DNA from: Flavobacterium sp. MDT1-60
GTDB lineage: Bacteria; Bacteroidota; Bacteroidia; Flavobacteriales; Flavobacteriaceae
Direction: 5' to 3'
Assembly (NCBI RefSeq): GCF_014844035.1
Contig: NZ_CP062159.1
Location: forward strand, 4,154,001 to 4,218,000
DNA: 64,000 nucleotides
Part shown: in pieces, positions 3,152 to 22,997 of the stretch
Layout: every line of letters starts with the position of its first letter
Position numbering within the stretch: position 1 is the first letter of the stretch
Made by a program: the position numbers and the translations under genes
Notes under the pieces: model-generated
Databases searched by the model: none
Told to the model about the DNA's origin: nothing
The model's input: only the letters and a program-made list of their open reading frames with translations

Positions 3152-3195
3152 GATTTCTAATTTTAAAATTAATAATTGTTTGTTATTTGATACTC

Positions 3196-3261
3196 CAAAA
3201 TTCCGAATAAAACCTTAGGTAGATTATACCGATTGCAAAGGGTTTATTATGAATTTCAAAG
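3196..3261 (-). promoter_or_regulatory. AraC-type operator-promoter (family 1) of the VOC gene
   Basis: Half-sites at 3228-3240 (ACCGATTGCAAAG) and 3249-3261 (ATGAATTTCAAAG) start 21 bp apart. A -7-like element GAATTTTG (minus reading, 3196-3203) lies 25 bp from the near half-site. This is the same geometry as the sites at 7546, 10353, 14366 and 17620. The first half-site is the most degenerate of the set. Confidence 0.6.
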
Positions 3262-3370
3262 ATGAATTATAAGTGGTTTATAAGGAAAGATTATGACAAT
3301 GCTACAAGACTTACCAGATCAAGACAGACTTATTATTGAATTTCGCCAAAACCGCGTTTTGAAAAGTTGA

Positions 3371-4297
3371 TTATTCTTTTTCATTTTTTGCTAATGCTTT
3401 CACCAATGCATCTGCTATAGCATGATCGGATGCAGGATTTTGGCCGGTTATCAGTTCTCTGTCTTGTATAATAAAAGATTTCCAGTTTTCTCCGTGTACT
3501 GTTTTTCCTCCTGCAAATTTTAAGGCGTCTGCCACATAGAATGGTAATTTTGCCTTACTGTCTTTAAGCGCATTATCCTCTTCCGAATTCGAAAATATTG
3601 CCATTTCATAGCCGGAATAAATCCAGTCTTTACCGAATTTTGAAATGGCAGATTTGTCATTTTCGACAAGCGCTTTACGGTAATTTACGGGGTCAGCAAG
3701 TGCTGCAGTCAGCGCAACTGGTCCGTGACATAAAAATGCCGTGGTAATGTTCTGCTCATGAACGTAGCGAAGGATTTTTCCAAAATCAGTACTTTGCATA
3801 AGATCAGTCATTGGTGCGCGGCCACCCGGTACAAACAAAGCACTGTATTTATTAAGATCTGAATTGGCCACTTCTGACAGCTTTTTAGGTTTGCTGAAAG
3901 CAGGATAAGTCTTTACAAAATCGAGTGCTTTTTTATAGGCGGTCTGATCGTTGCTGAAATAAACCGCATCGTTTGAGTTTTTGTCCATTGTTGGAACCAC
4001 TCCATCCTGGGTAGCGAGTTCAAGAGTGTAACCTGCAGCTACCAATGCCTGTGCTGGAACTGCCAATTCATCTAAAAAGTAGCCTGTATGAATGGTTGAA
4101 TTGTCATTCATTCTCAATATGTTTTGTGCTGAAAGTACAATCAATACGTACTTTTCATTTTCTGTTTTTTTTGTATTTTCCATAGTGTCTGTCTGATTAG
4201 AATTAGTTGAAGTTTCTGAATTTTTACAGCCCCATAAGAGAGATGCTGCCATTACTAATAGAGGTAGTTTCAAGTGCTTTGATCTAAATATCTTCAT
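3371..4297 (-). CDS. DJ-1/PfpI-family lipoprotein
   Basis: 308 residues. A lipoprotein signal with lipobox LLWGC (Cys24) predicts membrane anchoring, followed by a low-complexity linker (NSETSTNSNQTDT). From residue 50 on it is a class I glutamine-amidotransferase-like DJ-1/PfpI domain: acidic residue in TGYFLDEL, then nucleophile Cys190 with His191 in TTAFLCHGPVALT. Family members include Hsp31-type glyoxalase/chaperones, but the activity here is not determinable. It is the last gene of the minus-strand run starting with the ABM gene. Its 5' leader resembles that of the bestrophin gene (ATGATTATAATTTTTTA on the plus strand at both starts). Confidence 0.85.
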   Translation of the reverse strand: MKIFRSKHLKLPLLVMAASLLWGCKNSETSTNSNQTDTMENTKKTENEKYVLIVLSAQNILRMNDNSTIHTGYFLDELAVPAQALVAAGYTLELATQDGVVPTMDKNSNDAVYFSNDQTAYKKALDFVKTYPAFSKPKKLSEVANSDLNKYSALFVPGGRAPMTDLMQSTDFGKILRYVHEQNITTAFLCHGPVALTAALADPVNYRKALVENDKSAISKFGKDWIYSGYEMAIFSNSEEDNALKDSKAKLPFYVADALKFAGGKTVHGENWKSFIIQDRELITGQNPASDHAIADALVKALAKNEKE

Positions 4298-4391
4298 GAT
4301 TATAATTTTTTAATGGTTATTAGAATTGTATATAGTGTCTTTACGAAAAGAATTTGATACGCGAACGATTTTTTTAATTTGATGCCGGCGG

Positions 4392-5393
4392 TTACATCAA
4401 AATATTATTTATCGGTTGTAATGGAAGAGGCACATCGGTTTCACCGATCATTTCACGTAAATCAATTTCTATAGTCCGGCTGATTGCGGTTATCGGAATA
4501 TCGTTTGCCCCTCCTTCGAATGGATTCTCAGTACTTTCACCTACACCTTCCAAGATCAGGAATATCCAGCCTATAATCATGCTGAATGGTATCGTAAGCC
4601 ATATACCATAAACCCCGAGGTTGTCGAATTCCTTGAGGATTCCGAATGGCGTCATTATAATAAAAAGGTGAATAAAAAAAAGGCTTATACTGGCAAATTG
4701 CCTTGGGTACGGAAAGTTTTTGATACGCTCGTTACGCCCCTGCTGATCATAAAATTCTTTTAACACAGCAACCATTTCGACGTATTTCAACGTCTCGATT
4801 TCGTTTTCGGAATTCAGCTGGCTAAGGTGCTCCGACTGCAGGCCTATTATCTGTGCAGCAGGATTGGCAGCATCAATGATTTTAGCGAGCTCATTTTTAG
4901 ACAAAAGGGGTTTTATAATATCAACTAAATCTTCATCCCATTCTGACACCCGATACTTTTTTGCATATTCCCTGTATCTTGACTGAACACGGACATTTTC
5001 CCATTTTCTTGGCTGGCGTAACTGAAACCGCAATGCCGTCAGCCATGCAATATGTCTGTAGATGAGGATTCTCCTCAGGTTCTGCAGATCGGGATTCTTT
5101 TTGTCGATAAAATCCTTTGCCATAATACCCCAGGAACGGCTGCTGTTAACAATTGCCCCATAGATTTGTCTGGCTTCCCACGAACGTGCATAAGTGGCAT
5201 TATTCCTGAAGCCTGCAATAAATACTGCTGCAGTTCCTATCAATGTTACGGGTGCCCAAGGAATGTACATCCATTGTAATCCACATAATTTATAGAGTAA
5301 AACCGGTACAGCCGATACTATAAATAAATAGTATATACCGCGTCGTGACCATATCAAAAATTCTGATAACGAATAACGTCTTCCTGCGTGCAT
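4392..5393 (-). CDS. Bestrophin-family anion channel
   Basis: 333 residues with four hydrophobic segments (about 18-38, 42-62, 228-250, 262-285). The family hallmark is clear near residues 55-90: AGFRNNATYARSWEARQIYG, then a conserved SRSWG. Bacterial bestrophins (formerly UPF0187) form pentameric inner-membrane anion channels. Length is normal. It lies 36 bp downstream of the NTF2-like gene and 94 bp upstream of the DJ-1 gene, in a probable five-gene operon driven from 7546-7611. Its role with redox enzymes is unexplained. Confidence 0.9.
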   Translation of the reverse strand: MHAGRRYSLSEFLIWSRRGIYYLFIVSAVPVLLYKLCGLQWMYIPWAPVTLIGTAAVFIAGFRNNATYARSWEARQIYGAIVNSSRSWGIMAKDFIDKKNPDLQNLRRILIYRHIAWLTALRFQLRQPRKWENVRVQSRYREYAKKYRVSEWDEDLVDIIKPLLSKNELAKIIDAANPAAQIIGLQSEHLSQLNSENEIETLKYVEMVAVLKEFYDQQGRNERIKNFPYPRQFASISLFFIHLFIIMTPFGILKEFDNLGVYGIWLTIPFSMIIGWIFLILEGVGESTENPFEGGANDIPITAISRTIEIDLREMIGETDVPLPLQPINNILM

Positions 5394-5429
5394 GATTATA
5401 ATTTTTTAGTGGTTGAATAGTTGATCTAA

Positions 5430-5951
5430 TTAGTTTCCTGCAGGAATCCTTTTCATTATGTCCGCAAATTGAATTCCATCCAGAAATGCTTCAACACGAA
5501 TAATTTTACCTTTTTCCATCTGCATAAACCAAGCATAAGACATATTGTAAGGCTGTCCATCTTTGGCAGTTGCTGTACCATCTATCAGTGCAATCACAAT
5601 ATCTTTCTCTGCATATAGTGCCCTCAGTGAAGGGACAATTTTTTTGGAAAGACGCTCATTAAGCGGATTGATGACTTCTTCCAAAAATTGTTGTTTGTCG
5701 TTATAGGTTTTGGAAAGTGGGGCACTTCCATTAATTGTCCAGACCATATCATCGGTAAGCAGGTCAAAGAAACTTCCTTCTCCTTTTGCCCAACGCTCAA
5801 AGCCGGCTTTAATGATCTTTTTGTTTTCAGCCTGCGTTTGTGCAGAGATGTTAAAACCCAGCAGGGCAATAAAAGCACATAATGTCATTTTTAAAGTTTT
5901 ACTCACACTGGAGAAATTGTTTTTTTTGTGTTTGTGAATCTGCGATTTCAT
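5430..5951 (-). CDS. Exported SnoaL/NTF2-like protein
   Basis: 173 residues. Basic leader and signal peptide (MTLCAFIALLGFNISAQ), then an NTF2/SnoaL-like cone-shaped domain from about residue 45: AGFERWAKGEGSFFDLL, DDMVWTINGSAP and AWFMQMEKGKIIRVEAFLD are typical ketosteroid-isomerase-like segments. No catalytic activity can be assigned. The first 22 residues match the leader of the VOC gene at 2567-3151 (MKSxIHxHxKNNxxxVSK). It follows the SDR gene by 21 bp. Confidence 0.8.
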   Translation of the reverse strand: MKSQIHKHKKNNFSSVSKTLKMTLCAFIALLGFNISAQTQAENKKIIKAGFERWAKGEGSFFDLLTDDMVWTINGSAPLSKTYNDKQQFLEEVINPLNERLSKKIVPSLRALYAEKDIVIALIDGTATAKDGQPYNMSYAWFMQMEKGKIIRVEAFLDGIQFADIMKRIPAGN

Positions 5952-5972
5952 GATGTTTTTATTTTTAGTTGA

Positions 5973-6812
5973 TTAATTAAGTGTGAAGCCCGATGCAAGG
6001 GTCATGTATTTAAATTGTTCTATTTCGGCCTGCATTTCGCTTATTTTTTTTGTTACCCGAGTGTATGCATCCTGTCCTAGCAGGAGGCGTAATGGCGGAT
6101 TTTTCATCTCGCTTATTTCAGCGATAATTCGTGCTGCTCTTTCTGGATCTCCCGGTTGATTACCATTGTTGTTTTTAAGTGTGTTCCTAAATTTGCCCGC
6201 AGTGGCATCGTAGTCCGAAATGGTATTTTGCGATACGGCCAGCGAGCTATCTAAAAAATTGGTACGGAAGGCGCCAGGCTCAATAATAGTAACTTTGATT
6301 CCTAAGTCTTTTACCTCATGATAAAGTGCTTCTGAGAATCCTTCAACTGCATATTTAGCTGCATTGTATATTCCGAATCCTGGCGAACTTACTAATCCTG
6401 ATGCAGAAGAAAGGTTAATAATATGACCGTTGCCTGCTTTGCGCATAATTGGCAAAACATATCGGGTTACCCTTATGGTAGCTTCAACATTAATAGCAAG
6501 AACATTGGCAATTTCTTTTTCACTTGCTTCTTCAATAGCTCCCGCAAATCCGTAACCGGCATTATTGATGAGCATATCGATTGTACCATATTTTTTGTGA
6601 ACAGCTGTAATGGCTGTTTTGACAGCATTTTCATCTGTTAAATCAAGACTGATTACTTCCAGTTTTGGATTGCTGCGAACGCTTTGATCAAACTTGCCAG
6701 CATCTCTTGTAGTTACTATAACTGTCTGATCTCTTGATAATAGGTATCTCACTGCAGCAAAACCTATTCCTTGGGAAGCTCCTGTAATCAACCATACTTT
6801 TTTATTTTTCAT
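5973..6812 (-). CDS. SDR-family NAD(P)-dependent oxidoreductase
   Basis: 279 residues, a classical SDR. The cofactor motif TGASQGIG is at residues 10-17, NNAG at 83-86, the catalytic Ser in NLSSASG near 136, and YNAAK at 149-153. The arginine at about 37 (TTRDAGKF) suggests NADPH preference (inference). Substrate unknown. The C-terminal part resembles the SDR at 17716-18567 (both with EDY/DYDATxG and QPGDPE blocks). It is the second gene of the operon, 29 bp after the ABM gene. Confidence 0.9.
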   Translation of the reverse strand: MKNKKVWLITGASQGIGFAAVRYLLSRDQTVIVTTRDAGKFDQSVRSNPKLEVISLDLTDENAVKTAITAVHKKYGTIDMLINNAGYGFAGAIEEASEKEIANVLAINVEATIRVTRYVLPIMRKAGNGHIINLSSASGLVSSPGFGIYNAAKYAVEGFSEALYHEVKDLGIKVTIIEPGAFRTNFLDSSLAVSQNTISDYDATAGKFRNTLKNNNGNQPGDPERAARIIAEISEMKNPPLRLLLGQDAYTRVTKKISEMQAEIEQFKYMTLASGFTLN

Positions 6813-6841
6813 GACTTAAAATTTTATATTGTTTTTGATTC

Positions 6842-7489
6842 TTATTTGCTGATGTCTGTTACGAAAAGTACCGAGCCCAAAACGGTTCCATTTACTAATT
6901 TCCCTACATTATCGACTAATTCAGCAGTTGTCTCAAGTTTATTGTGTGCTTCAAGATTTTGCTGAGTTTCCCAACGTTCGTACAGCACAAATAGATTATC
7001 ATTTCCTTTTACGCTGTGAAAACTGAATTCAACGTTCCCTTGCTCCTGTCTAACAAGAGGCACAAATTTTTCAAAGAGCTCTATAATTTGCGGGCCATTT
7101 CCATGTTTTACTTCAAAAGGAACTATGAGCGTTGTTAAGGCTCTGTGTTCTTCTTTTTTTAGGGTTTCGTTAACAGGCCAAAGATCTGTGAGGTAGTTCA
7201 TTTCTATAGGTGCCATTAAATCTGCTTTTTGAAGATCAAAAGCACCTTGAGTGTAGGGCTGTTCAAAGTGGTTTTCTAGCGCAGTTTGGTTTTTCCATCG
7301 CTCAAATAGGTAGAAAACATTTGGTTTTGCTGTGGCATCGTAAAGTTCCATTTTGTAATTACCTTCTTCGCTCCAGGCGCCATGCACATCTGCCAATAGC
7401 GCCTGTTTTGCTTTCTCATTACTTTCCGTTTTTACAAAAAGCTTCACGAATAAAGTAACTGTATCTGTATTTTGATTTTTTGTATTCAT
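6842..7489 (-). CDS. Tandem antibiotic-biosynthesis-monooxygenase (ABM) domain protein
   Basis: 215 residues with two dimeric alpha-beta barrel repeats. The first (about 10-100) contains VTLFVKLFVK and FYLFERWKNQTALENHFEQP; the second (about 110-205) contains LTTLIVPFEVK and LFVLYERWETQQNLEAHN. The repeated ERW..Q..LE(N/A)H signature is typical of ABM/YgiN-type proteins, some of which oxidise quinones or polyphenols. A longer frame starts at 7588, but that lies upstream of the predicted -7 element at 7546-7553, so ATG 7489 is preferred. First gene of the ABM-SDR-NTF2-bestrophin-DJ-1 operon. Confidence 0.85.
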   Translation of the reverse strand: MNTKNQNTDTVTLFVKLFVKTESNEKAKQALLADVHGAWSEEGNYKMELYDATAKPNVFYLFERWKNQTALENHFEQPYTQGAFDLQKADLMAPIEMNYLTDLWPVNETLKKEEHRALTTLIVPFEVKHGNGPQIIELFEKFVPLVRQEQGNVEFSFHSVKGNDNLFVLYERWETQQNLEAHNKLETTAELVDNVGKLVNGTVLGSVLFVTDISK

Positions 7490-7545
7490 AATCTTTATAT
7501 CTAAATTGTTATCGGTAAGGATATCGTTTATCCTATTTGATGATA

Positions 7546-7611
7546 CAAAGTTCAGTATAAACCCAAGCTTGTTCTGTACGAATAACAAAGCCTATATTAT
7601 GAATATCAAAG
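7546..7611 (-). promoter_or_regulatory. AraC-type operator-promoter (family 1) of the ABM operon
   Basis: Direct half-sites ACGAATAACAAAG (7578-7590) and ATGAATATCAAAG (7599-7611) start exactly 21 bp apart. The minus-strand -7 element GAACTTTG is at 7546-7553, 25 bp from the near half-site. Predicted transcription start about 7540, about 50 nt before the ABM ATG. Confidence 0.75.
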
Positions 7612-7634
7612 ATTTTAAATAATTGAAGGTGTAA

Positions 7635-7664
7635 TAAAAAAGCCCTCGTAAATCGAGGGCTTTG
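7635..7664 (-). terminator. Terminator of AraC gene
   Basis: Perfect 8-bp arms AGCCCTCG (7641-7648) and CGAGGGCT (7654-7661), followed in the minus direction by TTTTTT. It separates the AraC gene from the operator of the ABM operon. Confidence 0.85.
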
Positions 7665-7687
7665 CATATATAATGGGATATGGATTT

Positions 7688-8623
7688 TTAGAAACTGCGT
7701 CTGAATTCGGCAGGTGTAAAACCAGTATTTTTCTTGAAGAACTGGCTGAAATTAGGCTGTTCTGCGAAACCAACACTAAAACTTATATCCTGAAGGCTCC
7801 AGTCTGTCTGTACCAGTAAGGCTTTGGCTTCATCAAGAATTCTGTTTCTAATATGTGTGCTTGCATTCTGACCTGTATGTTTTTTAAGAACTGCATTGAG
7901 ATAATTAGGATGCATCTGCAGGTCATAAGCAAATTCCTTTGCGGTTTTGATACGGATTGGCTGATCGTAGTTGATACCTGAAGTTTCCTTTTCTAATAAA
8001 TCGAAGAAATGGTGTATGTGTGAATAGTCTTCGGTAACTTCATCTGGTTTCGGAAATCGGGCTACCTTCATGCTTTCTACCATTAATAACTGAAGAAATG
8101 CCTGTAGGGAGTCTTCTCTAAAATCAACATTAGCTTTATCCAGCTCTTCTTCCTGCATCCGCTCAAAATACTGAGTAATTCGGGGAAGTTCTTCCTGACT
8201 TAAGCGAATTACACTTTTTGGTTTGTCTGTAAACAATGCGAATTTATCTATTATAGCTTTTAACTGTAAATGATGGTTGACAAACGATTTTTTGAAAAGT
8301 ACATAATAGCCTCCAGATTCTCCTTCTTGAGAAATATTTTTCCAAGAAATGATATCATTTGGATGAATAAATAGCAAAGTAGGTTCTTCGACATAGTAGG
8401 TATTAAGCCCCATCGTAAACACCCCCTGCCCTTTTGTAATTAATAATATTTTGTAAAATTCCCTGCGGTTTGGAGAAAGGTAATTACGGCACTCGTGCTG
8501 TTCACGGTTAAATACCCTTATGGTCCAATCTTCAAAAAACTCACGAAAAACAGGAATCATATCCGGCAAATCACGAAGGGTATTAATCTCTTTACTATCA
8601 AGTGTTTCTCTTACCATTCTCAT
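7688..8623 (-). CDS. AraC-family transcriptional regulator
   Basis: 311 residues. The N-terminal part (about 30-150) is a cupin-like sensor barrel (FYKILLITKGQGVFTMG, then LLFIHPNDIISW). Two helix-turn-helix motifs fill about 205-311, the second reading LQDISFSVGFAEQPNFSQFF with the family end KKNTGFTPAEFRRSF. AraC proteins of this type bind direct repeats as dimers. It lies between the family 1 promoters at 10353 and 7546, so it is a candidate regulator of one or both. It has its own downstream terminator and follows the SDR pair after a hairpin. Confidence 0.9.
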   Translation of the reverse strand: MRMVRETLDSKEINTLRDLPDMIPVFREFFEDWTIRVFNREQHECRNYLSPNRREFYKILLITKGQGVFTMGLNTYYVEEPTLLFIHPNDIISWKNISQEGESGGYYVLFKKSFVNHHLQLKAIIDKFALFTDKPKSVIRLSQEELPRITQYFERMQEEELDKANVDFREDSLQAFLQLLMVESMKVARFPKPDEVTEDYSHIHHFFDLLEKETSGINYDQPIRIKTAKEFAYDLQMHPNYLNAVLKKHTGQNASTHIRNRILDEAKALLVQTDWSLQDISFSVGFAEQPNFSQFFKKNTGFTPAEFRRSF

Positions 8624-8644
8624 AATTATTAGTCTTGTAAAATT

Positions 8645-8684
8645 AATAAAAAAAGCACTAACCTTTAAAAAATTAGTACTTTAA
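8645..8684 (-). terminator. Terminator between SDR 8702 and AraC 7688
   Basis: Arms AAAGCACTAA (8652-8661) and TTAGTACTTT (8673-8682) pair with one G-U; a T-rich run follows in the minus direction. Confidence 0.55.
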
Positions 8685-8701
8685 ATTCTGCCCTTTTGGG
8701 A

Positions 8702-9382
8702 TTAAAGGCTTTTATAATGTGTGCTTTCGGCTGCGTGGTGTATTTCTACAATAGATCTGTCAAGATATAGCGCATAAAATAGTTTTGCCAGTTCTTCGGG
8801 AGAATGGGTCTTACTTGCCGGATCAATCAAACCATCCACGGTCAATAAGCCTACATGAATATTCTCTATCTTTAGACGACTGTGCAGCTGATAGGCCAGA
8901 CTTCGTAATGCTGCTTTACCAATCGATAGTGAACCATAATCTGCACTTGGCGTTAAAGCAAGACCACCTCCAGTTAGAAGTAATGCTCCCTGCTTCTGTT
9001 TTAAATCAGGGTAGGTAATTTGTAAGGTATGTAAAGTATTTGCAACGTTTACCGTAAATTCCTTTGTTAAAGATTCGGAACTTTCTGCGAGGATATCCTG
9101 AGCTTTTACAACGGCGGCATTGTAGTGTACAACGTCGAAACCTCCTAAATACTCACCTAAAGTTTGTATTGCATTGGTAAGGTCTTCAGCACTTCCGGCA
9201 TCACCTGCAGCAGTATAACTTTCAATTCCTTTTGCATCTAAATATTCTTTTAAGTTTTTTAACTTTTCGGGATTACGGCTGATCAGACCTACAGCAAATC
9301 CCTCATTACCGAATTGTTCGGCAACTGAAAGGCTCAAACCCGAGCCTGCACTAACTATTAATATTGATTTTTTTGTTGACAT
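8702..9382 (-). CDS. SDR-fold protein with an atypical active site
   Basis: 226 residues with a Rossmann SDR core: ILIVSAGSGLSLSVAEQF at the N-terminus and HYNAAVVKAQ where NNAG is normal. The expected YxxxK helix reads YGSLSIGKAALR: Lys is kept but the residue four before it is Leu, not Tyr, while a Tyr lies seven before. It may therefore be a non-classical SDR, a binding protein, or use a shifted Tyr. It follows the SDR at 9482 by 99 bp and is probably in the same transcript, although a small hairpin (9425-9448) lies between them. Confidence 0.75.
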   Translation of the reverse strand: MSTKKSILIVSAGSGLSLSVAEQFGNEGFAVGLISRNPEKLKNLKEYLDAKGIESYTAAGDAGSAEDLTNAIQTLGEYLGGFDVVHYNAAVVKAQDILAESSESLTKEFTVNVANTLHTLQITYPDLKQKQGALLLTGGGLALTPSADYGSLSIGKAALRSLAYQLHSRLKIENIHVGLLTVDGLIDPASKTHSPEELAKLFYALYLDRSIVEIHHAAESTHYKSL

Positions 9383-9424
9383 GATATTTAGTATTAGATT
9401 TTCTTAAACTATATTATTTTATTC

Positions 9425-9448
9425 GGGCATCCTATTATTGAGATGCCC
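9425..9448 (-). terminator. Possible intra-operon hairpin
   Basis: Perfect arms GGGCATC (9425-9431) and GATGCCC (9442-9448) between two SDR genes. The minus-strand downstream tract is only weakly U-rich, so it may attenuate or process rather than terminate. Confidence 0.4.
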
Positions 9449-9481
9449 TGCTGAAACCAGCATTATTATGAAAAGTGATCA

Positions 9482-10294
9482 TTAAATGGTATTTTCCCAA
9501 GCTTTTAACTGGTGGTCTTTTAACATGTCTTCCACGAATTGCGGTACCACGTTTCTGAATTTACCGTTATCTGACGGTACAATTTCGATAATTGCATCGA
9601 TCATTTCCTGTGGATCCAGTCTTCCTTCTGGTGTACCTAAAAGCGAATCGAAATTGGCTTTCATATCAGCACGTTTGGTAAAGTTTTTGTCGTCATCCAG
9701 CCAGCGGAAAGCATTTTCAGCCATCGTTTCGTTGTAACCAGTTAAGTAAGCTCCAGGATTAATGGTTTGGATTTTGATTCCGTAAGGATTCAATTCATCA
9801 GCCAATGCTTCTGCAACTGCTTCAAGAGCGTGTTTGGTTGAAACGTAGATTCCGTAACCAGATGGCGTGAATAATCCACCCATAGAAGAAGTAAAAACGA
9901 TTTTACCTTTTTTGCCTTCTGTGATCCATTTAGAAGCAAAGCCTTGTGACAATTGCAGCGGAGCAAAAACATTTGTTTCATAATTAGCACGAACCAAATC
10001 AAGCGGAATTTCAAATACCGGACCGCTTTCCCCGATTCCTGCATTACTAAAGAATACATCGATGTCACGTTTTAAAGCGTTGGCCACGTCATATTTATCA
10101 AGGATGTTCAGTTTTACCACTTCTATGTTGTTTTCAAGTCCTGCTTCGGCAACTTTTTTGCGTAAGGCAGTAACTTCCGGCAGGATTTGTACTCCTGCAA
10201 TAACTTTGTGTCCTAATTTAGCAAGACCAAATGCTGCTCCTTCTCCTAATCCGGAACCTGCTCCGGTGATCAAAATTGTTTTTGTTGTACTCAT
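9482..10294 (-). CDS. SDR-family oxidoreductase, copy 1 of a near-identical pair
   Basis: 270 residues, a classical SDR: TGAGSGLG at residues 10-17, SNAGIGESG near 84, SSMGGL near 136, and YVSTK as the YxxxK active site. It differs from the protein at 13057-13869 at a single residue I can find (Asn versus Asp in VVKLxILDKYD). At DNA level the centre is almost identical while both ends carry many silent differences. Substrate unknown. It is driven from the family 1 operator at 10353-10418 and precedes the SDR-like gene at 8702. Confidence 0.9.
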   Translation of the reverse strand: MSTTKTILITGAGSGLGEGAAFGLAKLGHKVIAGVQILPEVTALRKKVAEAGLENNIEVVKLNILDKYDVANALKRDIDVFFSNAGIGESGPVFEIPLDLVRANYETNVFAPLQLSQGFASKWITEGKKGKIVFTSSMGGLFTPSGYGIYVSTKHALEAVAEALADELNPYGIKIQTINPGAYLTGYNETMAENAFRWLDDDKNFTKRADMKANFDSLLGTPEGRLDPQEMIDAIIEIVPSDNGKFRNVVPQFVEDMLKDHQLKAWENTI

Positions 10295-10352
10295 GATTTC
10301 TAAGTTTTATTTATTGTTAATATGATTTAATAGATGTTGATTTTCTATGAAG

Positions 10353-10418
10353 CAAAGTTGCAACGAAACCAAGAGGCAGGCTGTACGAATAACAAAGTCT
10401 CTATTATGAATATCAAAG
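10353..10418 (-). promoter_or_regulatory. AraC-type operator-promoter (family 1) of SDR copy 1
   Basis: Half-sites ACGAATAACAAAG (10385-10397) and ATGAATATCAAAG (10406-10418), 21 bp apart; minus -7 element CAACTTTG at 10353-10360, 25 bp away. The stretch between -7 and half-site (with ACGAAACCAAGAGG) is also shared with the copy at 14366-14431, so the promoter was duplicated with the gene. Confidence 0.75.
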
Positions 10419-10496
10419 ATAGATTTCAACAAAAAATATTTTATTGAATTTTAAATATTTGCAAAATGCTATTTTTTCATTAAAATCATAAAACAA

Positions 10497-10523
10497 CAAA
10501 AGCCCACAGTTTGTGGGCTTTTG
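10497..10523 (-). terminator. Terminator of AraC gene
   Basis: Arms AGCCCACA (10501-10508) and TGTGGGCT (10512-10519) with T tracts on both sides, just past the stop of the AraC gene at 10549. Confidence 0.85.
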
Positions 10524-10548
10524 TTAAAACGAGTAGATTATGCTACTA

Positions 10549-11457
10549 TCAATTCAATGATTTTCTAAACTCGACGGGAGAGTTTTTTGTTTTTTGCTTG
10601 AAGAGTTTATTAAAAGACTGCGGATGCTCAAATCCCAGCTGATAGGCAATTTCTGCAACACTCAGGTCGCTGTTTGCCAGAATAGATTTTGCTTTTTCGA
10701 TCAGTCGGGAATGAATGTGCTGCTGAGTAGTCTGCCCGGTAAGCAAGCGAAGCATGTCACTCAGGTAGCGAGGTGAAACCTTTACATGATCGGCTACATC
10801 TTGTACCGTTGGCAATCCTCCAATGAGTGATTTATCAGTATCAAAATAAGAAGATAGAAACGCTTCAACTTCAGACAGCATATCGTTGTGTATCGGTTTT
10901 CGAGTAATGAACTGCCTATTGTAAAATCGGTTACTGTAATTGAGCAGCAATTCGATTTGGGAAATAATTACATCCTGACTGAAATGGTCGATGTTATTAT
11001 CGACTTCCAGGATGATATTCTCAAAAATTGAAAAAATAATCTGCTTTTCCTTATCAGAAAGATAGAGTGCTTCGGCAACTGAATAGGAGAAGAATCCATA
11101 ATTGGCAATATTTTTTGCCAAAGGATAATTTCTAAGAAACTCAGGGTGAAAAATTAAAGTATAACCACTATAGTCTGCTTCCTGATCTGAAGAATAAACA
11201 ATCTGATCGGGCGCAGTAAAGGACAGTCCGCCTTCTTCAAAATCATAATGTCCCTGACCGTATTTGATAGCTCCGGCAAAATGCTTTTTGAATGATATTT
11301 TATAGAACTTAAGAATAAATGCAGTATTAGGCTGTTCGGATATGTTAATATCTTTATAGTCTACAAGTGCAATCAAAGGATGTTTTGGCTTTGGAAGGCC
11401 TAACTGATCCATTGCATTTGAGATACTTGTATAGGTATAGGTTTTTAGCTTTTTCAT
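10549..11457 (-). CDS. AraC-family transcriptional regulator
   Basis: 302 residues. Sensor domain about 35-180 (FTAPDQIVYSSDQE, YSGYTLIFHPEFL), then the double helix-turn-helix: VQDVADHVKVSPRYLSDML and SVAEIAYQLGFEHPQSFNKL, with the end KKxKNSPVEFRKSLN-like. It is translated 8 bp after tag, so the two should share a transcript. The AraC remnant at 18811-18909 is closest to this protein (shared LGFEH-QSF-KLFK). Effector unknown. Confidence 0.9.
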   Translation of the reverse strand: MKKLKTYTYTSISNAMDQLGLPKPKHPLIALVDYKDINISEQPNTAFILKFYKISFKKHFAGAIKYGQGHYDFEEGGLSFTAPDQIVYSSDQEADYSGYTLIFHPEFLRNYPLAKNIANYGFFSYSVAEALYLSDKEKQIIFSIFENIILEVDNNIDHFSQDVIISQIELLLNYSNRFYNRQFITRKPIHNDMLSEVEAFLSSYFDTDKSLIGGLPTVQDVADHVKVSPRYLSDMLRLLTGQTTQQHIHSRLIEKAKSILANSDLSVAEIAYQLGFEHPQSFNKLFKQKTKNSPVEFRKSLN

Positions 11458-11465
11458 AATTTCCG

Positions 11466-12014: not shown

Positions 12015-12080
12015 TTTAAAGAAAATTGCTTAGTGAACGTTTTACAAATATAAGTATTCATTGTATTGTTTTGATGTAAT

Positions 12081-12899
12081 TTAATTGCCCGGAAATTCAA
12101 TGTTCAACAATCTTCCAACATGTTTTCTAAAATTTTCGCTTCCCATTTCGGTAAGCTGACCGGCTATCTTAACAGCATCCGCACCTGCCATGTATCTTAA
12201 CTGATTTTTACCATCTGTAGCGGCTTCAAAAACAACATCAGCTATTACTTCCGGTTCGCTAAAATCAAGCAGCGTATTATTGTTGAAAAAGAGATCTATC
12301 AATTTTTCCTGTATCGGATCGTACTCCGGATGCGCAAATGCCTTTACACCATTTACAAAACTGGATTTTATGCCGCCTGGTGCTACTGTTTTAATCGTAA
12401 TATTGAATGGCGCCAATTCGTAAGACAAGCTTTCGCTTAATCCTTCCAATGCCCATTTTGTCGCATTATAAACTGAAGCCAATGGACAGGATATTATGCC
12501 AAAAACCGATGTTGTAGTAATAAACATTCCCCTGCCTCTCTCTTTGAAATAAGGAGTAAAAGCCTTTACAACCTTAATTACTCCAGTAAGATTTGTGTTG
12601 ATCTGGTCTTCGATTGCTTCGATGGGACTGGCTTCCAAAGAGCCACTCAAGCCATAGCCCGCATTATTAAATACAACATCAATACTTTCATTGGCAGTCA
12701 GCTCGCTAATAGTTGTATCAATCTGTTCTTTCTGAGTAACATCGAGCCGAATTAATTTTACATTTTCCAGCGCGTTTAACTCCGTTTCCTTTTCAGGATT
12801 ACGCATCGTTGCAATTACCCTCCAGCCGCTGGCCTGAAATAATCTAGCGGTGGCTTTACCCAGACCAGCTGATGCACCCGTAATAAATATAGTCTTCAT
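12081..12899 (-). CDS. SDR-family oxidoreductase
   Basis: 272 residues, a classical SDR: TGASAGLG at residues 7-14, NNAGYG near 80, a TTTSVFG serine region, and YNATK active site. The Arg at about 33 (ATMRNPEKE) fits NADP(H). Substrate unknown. It is preceded by the terminator at 13009-13041 and by its own family 2 repeat promoter (12928-12987), so it forms a separate transcript. It differs clearly from the duplicated SDRs. Confidence 0.9.
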   Translation of the reverse strand: MKTIFITGASAGLGKATARLFQASGWRVIATMRNPEKETELNALENVKLIRLDVTQKEQIDTTISELTANESIDVVFNNAGYGLSGSLEASPIEAIEDQINTNLTGVIKVVKAFTPYFKERGRGMFITTTSVFGIISCPLASVYNATKWALEGLSESLSYELAPFNITIKTVAPGGIKSSFVNGVKAFAHPEYDPIQEKLIDLFFNNNTLLDFSEPEVIADVVFEAATDGKNQLRYMAGADAVKIAGQLTEMGSENFRKHVGRLLNIEFPGN

Positions 12900-12927
12900 T
12901 TTCTTTTGAATTTAAATTTTACAAGTG

Positions 12928-12987
12928 CAAATTTCCTTTCATTAACCCAGATTTTAGTATCCAAAACCGTAAATGATGTAGTCAAAA
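12928..12987 (-). promoter_or_regulatory. 21-bp direct-repeat operator (family 2) of SDR 12081
   Basis: GTATCCAAAA (12957-12966) and GTAGTCAAAA (12978-12987) start 21 bp apart and match at 8 of 10 positions. A minus -7 element GAAATTTG lies at 12928-12935. It resembles the perfect repeat at 17510-17541. Confidence 0.5.
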
Positions 12988-13008
12988 AAACGATTGGTCT
13001 TAGCGCAT

Positions 13009-13041
13009 AAAAAAAGCCGATGGTTAAATCGGCTTTTTTAT
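13009..13041 (-). terminator. Terminator of SDR copy 2
   Basis: Arms AAAAAAGCCGAT and ATCGGCTTTTTT around a short loop, 16 bp after the stop of the SDR at 13057. Confidence 0.85.
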
Positions 13042-13056
13042 AGTTCAGGTATGTTA

Positions 13057-13869
13057 TTAGATGGTATTTTCCCAAGCTTTTAATTGGTGATCTTTTAACA
13101 TGTCTTCTACAAACTGTGGCACCACGTTTCTGAATTTACCGTTATCTGACGGTACAATTTCGATAATTGCATCAATCATTTCCTGTGGATCCAGTCTTCC
13201 TTCTGGTGTACCTAAAAGCGAATCGAAATTGGCTTTCATATCAGCACGTTTGGTAAAGTTTTTGTCGTCATCCAGCCAGCGGAAAGCATTTTCAGCCATC
13301 GTTTCGTTGTAACCAGTTAAGTAAGCTCCAGGATTAATGGTTTGGATTTTGATTCCGTAAGGATTCAATTCATCAGCCAATGCTTCTGCAACTGCTTCAA
13401 GAGCGTGTTTGGTTGAAACGTAGATTCCATAACCAGATGGTGTGAATAATCCACCCATAGAAGAAGTAAAAACGATTTTACCTTTTTTGCCTTCTGTGAT
13501 CCATTTAGAAGCAAAGCCTTGTGACAATTGCAGCGGAGCAAAAACATTTGTTTCATAATTAGCACGAACCAAATCAAGCGGAATTTCAAATACCGGACCG
13601 CTTTCCCCGATTCCTGCATTACTAAAGAATACATCGATGTCACGTTTTAAGGCATTGGCAACGTCGTATTTGTCAAGAATGTCCAGTTTTACCACTTCTA
13701 TATTGTTTTCAAGTCCAGCTTCAGCAACTTTTTTGCGTAAGGCAGTAACTTCCGGCAGGATTTGTACTCCTGCAATAACTTTATGACCTAATTTAGCTAA
13801 ACCAAATGCTGCTCCTTCTCCTAATCCGGAACCTGCTCCGGTAATCAAAATTGTTTTTGTTGTACTCAT
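13057..13869 (-). CDS. SDR-family oxidoreductase, copy 2 of a near-identical pair
   Basis: 270 residues with the same motifs as the gene at 9482-10294: TGAGSGLG, SNAGIGESG, SSMGGL, YVSTK. Only one amino-acid difference is visible. About 520 bp in the middle differ at about three positions, whereas the last 75 bp and first 200 bp carry dense silent changes, a mosaic that suggests gene conversion between older paralogues. It is cotranscribed with the HbpS/GlcG-like gene 50 bp upstream and closed by a strong terminator. Confidence 0.9.
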   Translation of the reverse strand: MSTTKTILITGAGSGLGEGAAFGLAKLGHKVIAGVQILPEVTALRKKVAEAGLENNIEVVKLDILDKYDVANALKRDIDVFFSNAGIGESGPVFEIPLDLVRANYETNVFAPLQLSQGFASKWITEGKKGKIVFTSSMGGLFTPSGYGIYVSTKHALEAVAEALADELNPYGIKIQTINPGAYLTGYNETMAENAFRWLDDDKNFTKRADMKANFDSLLGTPEGRLDPQEMIDAIIEIVPSDNGKFRNVVPQFVEDMLKDHQLKAWENTI

Positions 13870-13919
13870 GATTTCTAAGTTTTAATGATTTTAATATGAT
13901 TATTTATTATTAATTGTTG

Positions 13920-14312
13920 TTATACTAAGCTGCCTGCCGTTGCGATTTCAAAATCCTGATCTGGACTGCCTCCGGATACTCCGATGTAGGCTACGATATC
14001 ATTTCCTGATTTTACTGGTACTCCGCCTTTAAAACCTACAAGACCTCCACTGGTGTTAACCATACCGTAAGTTTTGTTTTCAGGATTTAAGAATTCACCA
14101 ACCGCTTCAGAATTCATACGGAACAGCATGGCTGTTTTTGCTTTTCCCATTGAGATATCTATCGAGCCAAGAAATGCATCATCCATTCTTACAAATGCTT
14201 TCAAGTGTCCTGCAGGATCTAAAATTGTAATGTTGGCATTTACACCAATTTCGTTTGCTTTGTCAATCGCTTGATATAGGGATTTGAAAGCTTGTTTTTG
14301 ATTTGTTTCCAT
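13920..14312 (-). CDS. HbpS/GlcG-family (DUF336) protein
   Basis: 130 residues, full length for the family. It shows the usual order: an N-terminal helix (AFKSLYQAIDKANEIG), strand NANITILDPAGHLKAFVRMD, helix SIDISMGKAKTAMLF, and the glycine-rich end GGVPVKSGNDIVAYIGVSGG followed by PDQDFEIA. Relatives bind haem or other small molecules; some act as corrinoid adenosyltransferases. No signal peptide, so cytoplasmic. First gene of an operon with SDR copy 2, under the family 1 operator at 14366-14431. Confidence 0.9.
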   Translation of the reverse strand: METNQKQAFKSLYQAIDKANEIGVNANITILDPAGHLKAFVRMDDAFLGSIDISMGKAKTAMLFRMNSEAVGEFLNPENKTYGMVNTSGGLVGFKGGVPVKSGNDIVAYIGVSGGSPDQDFEIATAGSLV

Positions 14313-14365
14313 GATACTTATTTTTAAATTGTTACTGTGTGATTTAGTACTCGTTTTGTATGAAG

Positions 14366-14431
14366 CAAAGTTGCGACGAAACCAAGAGGTAGATTGTACG
14401 AATTACAAAGCCTTTATTATGAATATCAAAG
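14366..14431 (-). promoter_or_regulatory. AraC-type operator-promoter (family 1) of the HbpS-SDR operon
   Basis: Half-sites ACGAATTACAAAG (14398-14410) and ATGAATATCAAAG (14419-14431), 21 bp apart; minus -7 element CAACTTTG at 14366-14373, 25 bp away. Nearly identical over about 75 bp to the site at 10353-10418. Confidence 0.75.
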
Positions 14432-14512
14432 ATAGATGCAGAGCAATTATATAAATACCTAAAAAACAATACATTAAACTTAAATTAATTTAATACAGAT
14501 AAGTTTTAAATT

Positions 14513-14543
14513 AAAAGTCCGCGAAAGAAACGCGGACTTTTTA
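14513..14543 (-). terminator. Terminator of AraC gene
   Basis: Perfect 11-bp arms AAAAGTCCGCG (14513-14523) and CGCGGACTTTT (14531-14541), 20 bp past the stop of the AraC gene at 14563. Confidence 0.85.
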
Positions 14544-14562
14544 AACATGGTGCAATAAATCA

Positions 14563-15489
14563 CTAACCTATCTGTCTGTAAAGCACAGGAGTGTATTGGG
14601 TATGCTTTTTAAAATAAGTGCTAAAATGCTGGATTTCTGAAAAGCCAAGACGGTATGAAATTTCTTTTACGGGAATATTAGAATTTTTGAGCAAAGCTTT
14701 AGCTTCGGCGATTGTTTTTTCGGCTATCCAATTTCCCACAGATTTTCCTGTTTTACTTTTTATAACATTATTTAGATAATTGGGATGCAAATTTAGGATT
14801 TCTGCATACTCGGTTACCCTGTGTGCCTTTTCGTTACTGCCGTTGCCAAGGTCACGGTAATGCTGCTCAATAATAATCTTAAATTTGTTTACAATTTCTG
14901 AAGCACGGCAGCTTTCATATGAAGGTATAATATTGTCTGTTAGTAAATTATCTTTAATCTTGATTAGCAAGGCAACAAATAAATGAGCTATCAATTTATT
15001 GCGGTAAGGAGATGCTGAAAAAAAAGCCTTTTCTATCTGCATGTACAATTCTTCAAATTCTGAAAATTTTTCCGCAGGCACTACCTGAGGCAAAATACTC
15101 TCTGCCAAAAGAAAAGGAAATTCTTCAAATATCTGCGAATGCACATTTTCCTTTAAAAAGCACTCTGTAAAAGTAAGCAGATAAAGATCTCTGGTATCTT
15201 TAATACGGAATTTTTTAATATGCCCAGGTGTATTAAAAAATATGGTTTGGGGTGCTATGTCATATTGCTCATTATCGGATATGAATTTTCCCCTGGCATC
15301 CTTAACGAAGACAAATGAAAAGAAATTGCCCCGGTATACAGCCGATTCGTATGTCTTAGGATTATATAGGTTTCCCATATTGTATATGGTGAATTTCTGA
15401 GCAATGTCAATGTCGACAGCGATGCCCAAATGTTTATACAACTCCTGGATCCTGTCAAATATTAGTAAAGGTTCGATAACTGTTTTCAT
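14563..15489 (-). CDS. AraC-family transcriptional regulator
   Basis: 308 residues. The sensor half (about 50-170) includes FFSFVFVKDARGKF and PQTIFFNTPGHIKKF; the DNA-binding half ends with VKEISYRLGFSEIQHFSTYF and KKHTQYTPVLYRQ. It is a paralogue of the protein at 16170-17093: both share FVKDA, TIFFxxPGH and the block LLxKIK. It starts 10 bp after the stop of the degenerate SDR, so the two form an operon with the family 2 repeat at 16098-16158 in front. Autoregulation is likely (inference). Confidence 0.9.
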   Translation of the reverse strand: MKTVIEPLLIFDRIQELYKHLGIAVDIDIAQKFTIYNMGNLYNPKTYESAVYRGNFFSFVFVKDARGKFISDNEQYDIAPQTIFFNTPGHIKKFRIKDTRDLYLLTFTECFLKENVHSQIFEEFPFLLAESILPQVVPAEKFSEFEELYMQIEKAFFSASPYRNKLIAHLFVALLIKIKDNLLTDNIIPSYESCRASEIVNKFKIIIEQHYRDLGNGSNEKAHRVTEYAEILNLHPNYLNNVIKSKTGKSVGNWIAEKTIAEAKALLKNSNIPVKEISYRLGFSEIQHFSTYFKKHTQYTPVLYRQIG

Positions 15490-15499
15490 ACTGATTGGT

Positions 15500-16078
15500 T
15501 TATAGCTTTAGCCCGTTAATAATGATATATTGTCCTGATATAAGGTCTGAAAGATCGGAGGCAAAAAACTCAGCAGCGTCTGCGATATGTATACTTCCAG
15601 TCGGAATTTCAAACAAATCGTTTTTCGTTACAATCGCATTTAAGGTTATACCACGCTGCTGTACAAATGATGCCTGTTTTTTCATTTGTTCGATGAAGTC
15701 CGGAAAATTTTGTAGATCAGTTTTCGGCACTATATAAATCACCCGTCCTTTATCAGCAATATGCTTAACCGCAAACTGAATTAACTGCATGAGAGATTCA
15801 TCTTGTTCAGGATTCAATACTATTATGTCGGGTTTTCTTTTTTGCGGCAGAAAAAGCACTTCATAATTGGTTTGTTCTTTGAAATTTACTCTCACCTTAT
15901 AAACGCCAGTACCCATGGCTTTAATATCACTTACTAATTTATCGATCCCATAATTTTCCTTCTCTGAATAATGCAGGACCATTTTTGCTCCGAGTGAGGC
16001 AAACCTTTCAGCGATAGCTTTACCTGTTTCATTTAATGAATAGGTTATAATAGCTGTTTTGTGTTGGAATTTGAACAT
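15500..16078 (-). CDS. Degenerate SDR-like protein
   Basis: 192 residues with an SDR-like Rossmann start (KTAIITYSLNETGKAIAERF) and the typical end of enoyl-ACP-reductase-like SDRs (SDLISGQYIIINGLKL). The glycine motif, the NNAG motif and the YxxxK pair are missing: the catalytic helix region reads QMKKQASFVQQRG. It is therefore unlikely to be a normal oxidoreductase. The longer start at 16108 lies upstream of the predicted -7 element (16098-16105), so ATG 16078 was chosen. Cotranscribed with the AraC gene at 14563; it could be a sensor partner or a decaying enzyme. Confidence 0.7.
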   Translation of the reverse strand: MFKFQHKTAIITYSLNETGKAIAERFASLGAKMVLHYSEKENYGIDKLVSDIKAMGTGVYKVRVNFKEQTNYEVLFLPQKRKPDIIVLNPEQDESLMQLIQFAVKHIADKGRVIYIVPKTDLQNFPDFIEQMKKQASFVQQRGITLNAIVTKNDLFEIPTGSIHIADAAEFFASDLSDLISGQYIIINGLKL

Positions 16079-16097
16079 GTGTCTTGATTTTATAATA

Positions 16098-16158
16098 CAA
16101 ATTTGCATATAAAAACAAGTTTGGTTGTTGCGAGAAACCTATGATGTATTGCAAAAAT
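16098..16158 (-). promoter_or_regulatory. 21-bp direct-repeat operator (family 2-like) of the degenerate SDR-AraC operon
   Basis: TTGCGAGAAA (16128-16137) and TTGCAAAAAT (16149-16158) start 21 bp apart. A minus -7-like element CAAATTTG is at 16098-16105. Looser than the other family 2 sites. Confidence 0.4.
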
Positions 16159-16169
16159 CGAATATTAGA

Positions 16170-17093
16170 TTAAGAATATGCCTGACGGTATGCCAAAGGT
16201 GTTAATCCTGTGTGTTTTTTGAAGTAATTGCCGAAGTGTGCACTTTCTATAAAGCCTAACTTTATACTTATTTCTTTATTAGAAAGGCTGGTATGAAGCA
16301 AAAGGCTCTGTGCTTCAGTGATCATTTTTTCCGAAATCCAAACGCGTACTGATTTTCCGGTTTTGGTTTTTATAACCGTATTGAGGTAATTCTCATGAAG
16401 GCTTTGAATTTCTGCATAATCTGTTACACGAAATTGTATTTCAGTTTTACCTTCCACAAGATCCCTAAAATGGTTTTCTAGGCTGGCTTTGAAATTTTTA
16501 ACTATTTGCGAACTTTTATTGCCTTCGTATATAGGATTATAATCTTTCCAGAAAGCTTCTTTTATTTTAAATAACAAAATCATCAAATAATTTCCGATAA
16601 TCTTCTGCTTATATATCGAATTGGACTCAAAAGCTTTAAACAGCTGCAGACAGCTATCCTCAAAATGAGCAAACTCATCAGGCGCAAGTGTACGTGGGTT
16701 TACTGTTTCTGAAACCAAAAAAGGGAATTCCTGAAATACATCGCCATGAATGTTCTTCTTTAGGAAAGCTTCTGTAAAGGCTACCAGATAGACATCGTTC
16801 ATATCAAACCACTCAAATGATCTGTAATGGCCTGGATTTGTAAAAAAAATAGTTCCAGGTTCCATTGCAAAAGTGATGTTGTCGGTTGTGTAATCTGCAT
16901 GTGCATCTTTGACAAATAACATCGTGAAGTAATTTGGACGAAATACAATTGACTTAAATGGAAGCACTTTAAACAGATCTTTCAAATTGCTTAAGGAAAA
17001 TCCATCACCGTCATGCAGCATGTGAGAAACAGGAAGGTTCATTGCTGCAAATGTCTCTGTAAGATCTTTGAAGATAGCTGGATTCTCTTTCAT
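16170..17093 (-). CDS. AraC-family transcriptional regulator
   Basis: 307 residues. Sensor domain about 50-165 (FTMLFVKDAHADYTT, PGTIFFTNPGHYRSF), double helix-turn-helix at the C-terminus (LSNKEISIKLGFIESAHFGN, then KKHTGLTPLAYRQAYS). It is a paralogue of the regulator at 14563-15489. It begins 8 bp after the NTF2-like gene and shares its promoter, which carries the perfect TGTAGCCAAAA repeat at 17510-17541, so it may autoregulate through that site (inference). Confidence 0.9.
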   Translation of the reverse strand: MKENPAIFKDLTETFAAMNLPVSHMLHDGDGFSLSNLKDLFKVLPFKSIVFRPNYFTMLFVKDAHADYTTDNITFAMEPGTIFFTNPGHYRSFEWFDMNDVYLVAFTEAFLKKNIHGDVFQEFPFLVSETVNPRTLAPDEFAHFEDSCLQLFKAFESNSIYKQKIIGNYLMILLFKIKEAFWKDYNPIYEGNKSSQIVKNFKASLENHFRDLVEGKTEIQFRVTDYAEIQSLHENYLNTVIKTKTGKSVRVWISEKMITEAQSLLLHTSLSNKEISIKLGFIESAHFGNYFKKHTGLTPLAYRQAYS

Positions 17094-17101
17094 AGACTTT
17101 T

Positions 17102-17437
17102 CTATAGCAGATCTGCTTTTAGATGTATGATTTTATCTTTGTGAAAAGTAAAATCTAATGTACCGCCTATGCCTCTTTCCGAAAAATTTCCTGTAAAAAA
17201 GGCTTCTAAGTGAGCTGATCCCTTATCAACTATATCAATTTTAATAATTTTCGTTTGAGTATTATATCCAACGAAATAATCTTCGAAATATTTACGAATA
17301 CCAGAATGACCCCTAAATTTCTCGCCAACTGATGGATCATCTATAACTGCGCTCTCATCATAATATTTTACATAAGCTTCAGTGTCGAAAGTATTGCTGG
17401 TAACTAGCCAACTTTGTAAAAAGGCATTAATATCCAT
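17102..17437 (-). CDS. SnoaL/NTF2-like protein
   Basis: 111 residues, a compact SnoaL-like polyketide-cyclase fold: FLQSWLVTSNTFDTEAYVKY, then a DDPSVGEKFRGHSGIRKYF block typical of the family, and DFTFHKDKIIHLKADL as the last strands. No signal peptide, so cytoplasmic, unlike the exported NTF2-like protein at 5430. Ligand unknown. First gene of an operon with the AraC regulator at 16170. Confidence 0.85.
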   Translation of the reverse strand: MDINAFLQSWLVTSNTFDTEAYVKYYDESAVIDDPSVGEKFRGHSGIRKYFEDYFVGYNTQTKIIKIDIVDKGSAHLEAFFTGNFSERGIGGTLDFTFHKDKIIHLKADLL

Positions 17438-17481
17438 TGTGATTTAATTAATTGTTTGCGGAATTAAGTTTGTATTATCTA

Positions 17482-17541
17482 CAAAAATCAAGAAAATACT
17501 TTATTAGAATGTAGCCAAAATGTATTGGTTTGTAGCCAAAA
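17482..17541 (-). promoter_or_regulatory. Perfect 21-bp direct-repeat operator (family 2) of the NTF2-AraC operon
   Basis: TGTAGCCAAAA occurs at 17510-17520 and again at 17531-17541, identical and 21 bp apart. The minus -7-like element GATTTTTG is at 17482-17489. It lies in the divergent region shared with the SDR at 17716. Confidence 0.65.
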
Positions 17542-17619
17542 TTACGTTCCGTTATTTTAACACTAATTTCTAGTGAATAAGCTACTTTCAAAACGATCTC
17601 TATAAACTTATTTTCTAAA

Positions 17620-17685
17620 AGTTGATATTCATAATCATTGCTTTCCTTTTCATATAGAGTAACCTGAGTTTTTGAAGCAATTTTG
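17620..17685 (+). promoter_or_regulatory. AraC-type operator-promoter (family 1) of SDR 17716
   Basis: Plus-strand orientation of the same module: AGTTGATATTCAT (17620-17632) and CTTTCCTTTTCAT (17641-17653), 21 bp apart, then -7 element CAATTTTG at 17678-17685, 25 bp from the near half-site. The first half-site matches the consensus CTTTGATATTCAT at 11 of 13 positions, the second is weaker. Confidence 0.6.
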
Positions 17686-17715
17686 TATCAGTAATAATTT
17701 ATAAAATTTAAAATA

Positions 17716-21111: not shown

Positions 21112-22997
<1,886 letters not shown>

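Follow-up and report, generated by a model that had tools for sequence, protein, structure and literature searches.

We analysed a 64,000-nucleotide stretch of the Flavobacterium sp. MDT1-60 genome (contig NZ_CP062159.1, positions 4,154,001 to 4,218,000; hereafter the window, with positions counted from its first letter). In it, five promoters of an oxidoreductase gene cluster share one module, two direct half-sites followed at a fixed distance by a −7 element. These sites are probably class-II-type activation sites of a single AraC-family protein, R1 (7688..8623, minus strand), a reading whose probability we put at roughly three in four. Five promoters would thereby be tied to one regulator through a sequence code that can be tested. 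A second regulator family encoded in the cluster, that of R2, appears to use another half-site in nearly the same register, so that AraC regulons of Bacteroidota may become predictable and inducible promoters could be built for the phylum.

Five promoters with one module geometry

Each module is composed of two 16-base direct half-sites, the far one like CTTTGATATTCATAAT and the near one like CTTTGTTATTCGTACA, and a −7 element like NAANTTTG. The half-site starts lie 21 bp apart at all five sites, and the −7 element starts 37 bp past the start of the near half. Four modules are on the minus strand. Module 1 (3196..3261; far half 3261-3246, near half 3240-3225, −7 element 3203-3196) precedes the VOC gene, and module 2 (7546..7611; 7611-7596, 7590-7575 and 7553-7546) precedes the ABM-SDR-NTF2-bestrophin-DJ-1 genes. 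Module 3 (10353..10418; 10418-10403, 10397-10382 and 10360-10353) precedes SDRa-SDRd, and module 4 (14366..14431; 14431-14416, 14410-14395 and 14373-14366) an HbpS-like gene and SDRb. Module 5, the weakest, lies on the plus strand (17620..17685; 17620-17635, 17641-17656 and 17678-17685) ahead of the SDR gene at 17716-18567. The ABM gene has a possible ATG start at 7489; the alternative TTG listed at 7588 falls within module 2. The first-pass annotation had reported these coordinates, the 21-bp spacing and the −7 elements, as well as the same spacing in the opposite direction for the plus-strand copy (17620/17641/17678), and re-reading bore all of this out. One correction concerns the near half of module 5, which is a poor match (CTTTCCTTTTCATATA).

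Modules 1, 2 and 4 have orthologous modules in a second genome of the genus (G486), and both the AraC-type tandem arrangement of direct half-sites about 21 bp apart and the 37-bp distance to the −7 element recur in all three of them. Among the five window modules, mean pairwise identity is 0.93 for the far half, 0.76 for the near half and 0.85 for the −7 element, against 0.30–0.32 in the upstream and 0.41 in the downstream flanks. Since the half-sites and −7 elements are conserved while the flanks are unrelated, the modules are not merely one copied intergenic block.

We searched the genome as one contig of 5,563,897 bases. The half-site pattern TTTGATATTCATAATN5CTTTG, allowing up to three mismatches, gave nine matches and its reversed control six. 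The five sites carry 0, 0, 0, 1 and 2 mismatches, the weakest being equalled by an unrelated place (5039626, 2 mismatches), and with up to two mismatches the pattern matches in 34 of 150 genomes of the genus, so that this short pattern is by itself unspecific. The near half with the −7 element, at up to three mismatches, recovered three of the five sites and nothing else in the genome, while far half, near half and −7 element combined recovered all five and no other match. A wider R1 regulon in this genome was considered and rejected, as two of the four extra half-site matches, at 963647 and 5039626, lack a −7 box at the right distance; the other two lie at 3965597 and 4347073.

Scoring with left-out matrices, each trained without the scored site and its close copies and run over 927,190 background positions, gave 35.2–57.5 bits for the five window sites and 43.6–53.3 for the three G486 sites, with background maxima of 10.1–14.8. 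Module 5 scored 35.2 against a background maximum of 10.1. With a matrix of the near half and −7 element only, each of the eight sites still exceeded all background (module 5, 19.2 versus 13.9). Given its poor near half, module 5 is a real site, but probably a weaker one.

In Flavobacterium psychrophilum, the −7 box occupies −12 to −5 (PMC9723704). Placed accordingly, the R1 half-sites fall between −70 and −55 (far) and between −49 and −34 (near). By eye, none of the eight R1-type promoters (five in the window, three in G486) has TTTG at −33, and at −12 none has T, the base there being G or C. With 37 bp between the starts of the near half and the −7 element in 8/8 promoters, a fixed distance at which the site overlaps −33, the R1-type layout is, as judged from sequence, that of a class II AraC activation site. 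Within the spacer, around −22 to −18, at least seven of the eight promoters agree at each position of a G.TTT motif, and the HbpS promoters of the window genome and G486 have 95% identity over the entire spacer.

R1 as the candidate regulator

R1 encodes an AraC_binding-like N-terminal domain and an HTH_18 domain (Pfam matches: HTH_18, 3.4e-20; HTH_AraC, 4.3e-10; AraC_binding, 3.4e-07), which places it in the AraC/XylS family. Its relatives in the Protein Data Bank over the DNA-binding domain include AraC (2k9s) and SoxS (7w5w). R1 was found in 2 of 299 genomes of the genus at E ≤1e-80 (this one and G486), in 1 of 397 genomes of the family at E ≤1e-60 (this one) and in 2 of 395 genomes of the phylum at E ≤1e-70 (this one and G936). 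In a genus draw of equal size (299 genomes), the full module, allowing up to three mismatches, gave ten matches in 4 genomes, eight of them in the two that bear R1 (five here, three in G486). The other two are single matches with three mismatches each (G516 and G057), the latter overlapping a hairpin-like sequence by eye; the reversed module pattern had no match among those listed for these genomes.

The G486 modules precede orthologous units, namely VOC, HbpS-SDRb and SDRd-ABM-SDR-NTF2-bestrophin-DJ-1. Between the two species, the promoter flanks are 26–47% identical and the −7 elements 100% identical in all three pairs. Two stretches that we take to be the recognition helices are, in the alignment, identical in R1 and its G486 ortholog and different in R2. 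A search of the whole G486 genome with R3 (E ≤1e-20) gave one match at 27% identity and nothing above. For R4, which is 44% identical to this whole-genome query, the 39 kb around the G486 modules contained no match at E 1e-30. As G486 nevertheless retains three modules, neither R3 nor R4 is needed to explain them, and R2 is not the common regulator because its subfamily has a box of its own. The earlier proposal of a single AraC-type regulator for all five promoters is the one best supported by the comparative evidence, and R1 is the likely regulator.

Several observations weigh against this assignment. The cluster that contains both R1 and the modules seems to move as a unit; their co-occurrence therefore supports R1 but does not alone single it out, and with close orthologs this co-occurrence covers two genomes only, this one and G486. 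G486 also contains an R2 homolog (58%), and the promoters of SDRa and of the HbpS-like gene are in part duplicates of one another. Among more distant relatives, the R1-like gene of G936 (55%) has no module within the 15 kb read, and an R1 paralog in G486 (53%) has no module of its own. Of the three relatives at 51–55% identity scored for a nearby module, one was positive. This one, which speaks for R1, is a gene on a Spirosoma plasmid with 51% identity to R1 and the one plasmid record found for it, where a variant module (CTTCGATTTTCGTATA / CTTCGAAACGGATATA) with 21/37 spacing lies between the stop codon of the R1-like gene and the next gene, which encodes an MFS transporter. Its score of 12.2 is equalled by 1 of 3,048,406 background positions. 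In G936, the R1-like gene is divergent to HbpS-SDRb-NTF2 genes. R1 was not found in IMG/VR.

The neighbourhood of the modules also admits the explanation that each promoter is run by its nearest AraC gene, or that paralogs share boxes, since R1, R2 and R3 each lie just upstream of a module: the distance from the end of the regulator gene to its module is ~130 bp for R2 (module 3) and for R3 (module 4), and ~80 bp for R1 (module 2). The first recognition-helix stretch is similar in R1, R3 and R4 (H-P/E-NYLN), and in another genome (G370) a 21/37 module that has TTTGA but a different second half comes after an R3-like gene. Against this stand the three modules kept in G486, where R3 found nothing above 27%, and the TTYGGCTACA boxes of R2-type genes, which in the best 80 of 315 R2-relative loci score at least 12 in 74 and at least 18 in 69. 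No R1 module occurs in these 80 loci, the top match reaching 16.7. We therefore consider control by the nearest AraC gene, or by several paralogs, unlikely.

The resemblance of the modules might instead be a relic of duplicated promoters that spread with SDR genes, without any shared regulator. SDRa and SDRb are indeed 96.6% identical in DNA over 847 bp, their promoter regions are 79% identical over 153 bp, and other module pairs align at 73–78% over 68–145 bp. The flanks, at 30–41% mean identity versus 76–93% for the half-sites and −7 element, and their divergence between species beside invariant −7 elements in 3/3 promoters, argue against such a relic, as does the fact that not every gene served by these promoters is a paralog of the others; we regard it as very improbable. 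R1 could also repress rather than activate, or the repeats could be bound by another type of factor; since the near half-site extends over the −33 region, a protein sitting on it might keep polymerase away. The R1-type promoters, lacking a −33 TTTG (eight promoters, by eye) and having a non-consensus −12 base in 8/8, should however need help, and a fixed register to the −7 box is needed by an activator and not by a repressor, which leaves these alternatives with little probability.

If R1 is the common activator, two R1 subunits would occupy one face of the DNA in head-to-tail order, separated by two helical turns, one at roughly −70 to −55 and the other at roughly −49 to −34. The subunit nearer the promoter would replace the missing −33 box and recruit RNA polymerase to the weak −7 box ([GC]AANTTTG). 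R1 itself would be made from its own promoter without a box. The gap between SDRd and R1 lacks a box, which makes autoregulation of R1 through a module-type site improbable; what it does contain, judged by eye, is an AT-rich inverted repeat with a T-run behind it, absent from the terminator scan list. R1 probably responds to a small ligand; as its predicted targets are SDR, VOC, ABM and DJ-1-like proteins, our guess is a reactive carbonyl, quinone or aromatic compound. Ligand-responsive R1 would then induce the five transcription units together. The analysis establishes the sequence of the modules, their spacing, statistical significance and conservation, and their co-occurrence with R1, whereas binding by R1, its dimer, activation and the ligand are inferred. 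A sigma70-type promoter scan of the window, the wrong promoter type for this host, found 51 sites versus 54.0 in shuffles, and terminator-like sites numbered 12 versus 12.1.

A second box type and the reach of the register

R2 (10549..11457, minus strand), the second AraC regulator, has its own box type, with the half-site TTYGGCTACA, a period of 21 bp and the −7 box at +20. One such module (12928..12986, minus strand; half-sites 12986-12977 and 12965-12956, −7 box 12935-12928; score 36.5) precedes SDRc, a TagA-like gene and R2. As the R2 operon carries an R2-type box, R2 is probably autoregulated. A second, with a perfect TTTGGCTACA pair (17482..17540, minus strand; 17540-17531, 17519-17510 and 17489-17482; score 47.9), precedes a SnoaL-like gene and R4, whereas a weak third R2-like module ahead of SDRg-R3 (16098..16156, minus strand) scores 14.1, within reach of chance. 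Another R2-type module lies just outside the window, ahead of an SDR gene and an R2-like gene, and G486 has two, at separate loci (L131 and L132).

The R2 box was analysed in the best 80 of the 315 loci with R2 relatives. Strict pairs (TT[TC]GGC[TA]ACA, at most one mismatch per half, 11 to 45 bp apart) occurred 21 times at a distance of 21 bp, spread over 19 loci, while the distances 25, 38 and 45 bp were each seen a single time; the −7 box lies exactly 20 bp downstream in 21/21 of the 21-bp pairs. A first count of 272 hits at period 21, versus 17–106 at other periods, consists of overlapping hits that are not independent. The 74 and 69 loci given above come from leave-locus-out scoring with the R2 matrix, for which the background in this genome, differing in base composition from many of the 80 loci, contains, among 851,564 positions, four that score at least 12 and one that scores at least 18. 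At this rate a locus of ~40,000 positions would reach 12 by chance about once in five, so the strong support is the 69/80 at 18 or more. When sites were chosen by half-sites alone (≥14), 54/80 loci passed and the −7 box lay exactly at +20 in 49/54, versus a chance rate of 0.0019 per position; the matrix had been trained on sites picked with the −7 box at +20, which makes this test not wholly independent. In these 49 promoters, the −12 base is G or C in 40, T in 8 and A in 1 (nominal p = 6e-8 against a background G+C of 0.44, inflated by kinship among loci).

The AraC-type HTH_18 domain is matched 80 times in the genome, 79 of these matches being above the curated cut-off. Across 365,556 bases in 57 regions surrounding such matches outside the window, 15 direct repeats with period 21 had a −7 box, versus 0–10 at other periods (9 at 22, 10 at 24); the reversed control had 3 at period 21. 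The 15 include the R2-type module just outside the window and its antisense shadow. Thus, the 21-bp rule is firm for the R1 and R2 types and amounts to a weak excess for the other AraC genes of this genome. The 21/37 module of G370 (CTTTGAAATTGGTCAT / GTTTGATAATGGTCGT with CAACTTTG; locus L136, position 9459, minus strand) lies directly after the R3-like gene and is a possible R3-type box; the N terminus encoded by the next open reading frame is aldo/keto-reductase-like by eye.

We tentatively propose, while holding it somewhat doubtful, that AraC-activated promoters follow a common rule throughout Bacteroidota: tandem half-sites with a 21-bp period in register with the −7 box, G or C in place of T at −12, and no −33 box. 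The half-site sequence would vary with the regulator and the geometry hardly at all, R1 and R2 being two independent examples in one horizontally spread oxidoreductase cluster. Such a register rule, if true, could assign AraC regulons from sequence throughout the phylum. To our knowledge, few AraC targets outside sugar use are known in this phylum.

AraC and XylS sites have a 21-bp period at promoters of the −35/−10 type, and the XylS repeats reportedly overlap the polymerase site. The R1 modules resemble the sites of these proteobacterial proteins, AraC at araBAD I1-I2 and XylS at Pm, in being tandem direct repeats read by an AraC-type double helix-turn-helix, and differ from them in having a Bacteroidota −7 box without −33 in place of −35/−10. 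XylS binds two 15-bp direct repeats (PMC5481539). Within the phylum, PMC3870299 and PMC3878776 describe predicted direct repeats with 21-bp periodicity for the AraC-type RhaR of Bacteroides, and sites of 16 bp with a 5-bp spacer, 12 bp with 9 bp and 14 bp with 6 bp (period 20) for hybrid two-component regulators. The 21-bp periodicity of AraC sites in Bacteroides is therefore already in print (PMC3870299), as are spacings totalling 21, once 20 (PMC3878776). These systems share the repeat period and the phylum with ours but control sugar and polysaccharide regulons through their own motifs, and the available text gives no fixed distance to the −7 box. The sigmaA promoters of F. psychrophilum (TAnnTTTG; PMC9723704) have the TTTG of the −7 box in common with both types described here, whereas their T at −12 is replaced by G or C in 8/8 R1-type promoters and absent in 41/49 R2-type promoters. 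Searches of PubMed Central on AraC sites in the phylum, this gene set, the promoters of the phylum and AraC site geometry, with subscription papers outside their scope, listed no paper that deals with this regulon or with a fixed register between AraC sites and the −7 box. The regulon and the exact positional rule thus appear undescribed, while the overall design belongs to a known kind; what looks new is the fixed register together with the G or C at −12, and 21-bp AraC repeats were already known, including in Bacteroides.

Gene cluster and surroundings

The oxidoreductase cluster (2567-18567) contains four AraC genes (R1–R4), six SDR genes and one weak SDR-like gene, together with TagA-like, VOC, DJ-1-like, bestrophin, SnoaL/NTF2-like, ABM and HbpS-like genes. 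By its −7 boxes and by the named relatives of its AraC proteins, the window is assigned to Bacteroidota, and probably to a Flavobacterium. The predicted targets on the minus strand are the VOC/glyoxalase-like protein (2567..3151; Pfam Glyoxalase), the operon of ABM, SDR, SnoaL/NTF2-like, bestrophin and DJ-1/PfpI genes (3371..7489; assigned by Pfam, with the SnoaL_2 match just below cut-off), SDRa of the PRK09291 family with SDRd (8702..10294), and the HbpS-like protein with SDRb (13057..14312). SDRf, of the PRK06180 family (17716..18567), is the target on the plus strand. The remaining regulators, R3 (14563..15489) and R4 (16170..17093), are both encoded on the minus strand.

SDRb is a recent copy of SDRa, the duplicated DNA spanning 9481-10327 and 13056-13901. 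A leader region encoding similar N termini (MKSKIHEHPKNN / MKSQIHKHKKNN) is common to the VOC gene and the NTF2-like gene (3091-3177 and 5892-5978; 79.5% over 88 bp). SDRb (13057-13869) matched 20 plasmid records, with Sinorhizobium, Rhizobium, Paraburkholderia and Pararhizobium among their names; identity reaches 69% on Sinorhizobium and Rhizobium plasmids, unexpectedly close for another phylum. Upstream of the window (genome 4141000-4158000), the cluster continues with three more AraC genes, two SDR genes and the R2-type module mentioned above.

Tyrosine recombinases with a Phage_int_SAM_5 domain lie at 19647-20627 here, at 9200-10435 of locus L131 in G486 and at 10261-11382 of locus L221 near the R1-like locus of G936. 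R1 proteins 80–90% identical are listed from Chryseobacterium (C. ginsenosidimutans), Flavobacterium zepuense, Dyadobacter, Spirosoma and Pedobacter, genera of several orders. The recombinases adjoining the cluster, these close R1 proteins across genera and the presence of R1 in 2/299 genus genomes suggest that the cluster has spread horizontally. No tRNA that could serve as an integration site was found in the window. The recombinase at 19647-20627 is perhaps cut short, its catalytic domain being matched over 3-78 of 172 positions only. Beyond it, dnaK (21112-22994, minus strand) is split into two overlapping open reading frames of 120 and 507 amino acids, both Hsp70 in Pfam, by a frame break at an A-run; the break in this gene for a major chaperone is due either to an error in sequencing or to a genuine frameshift.

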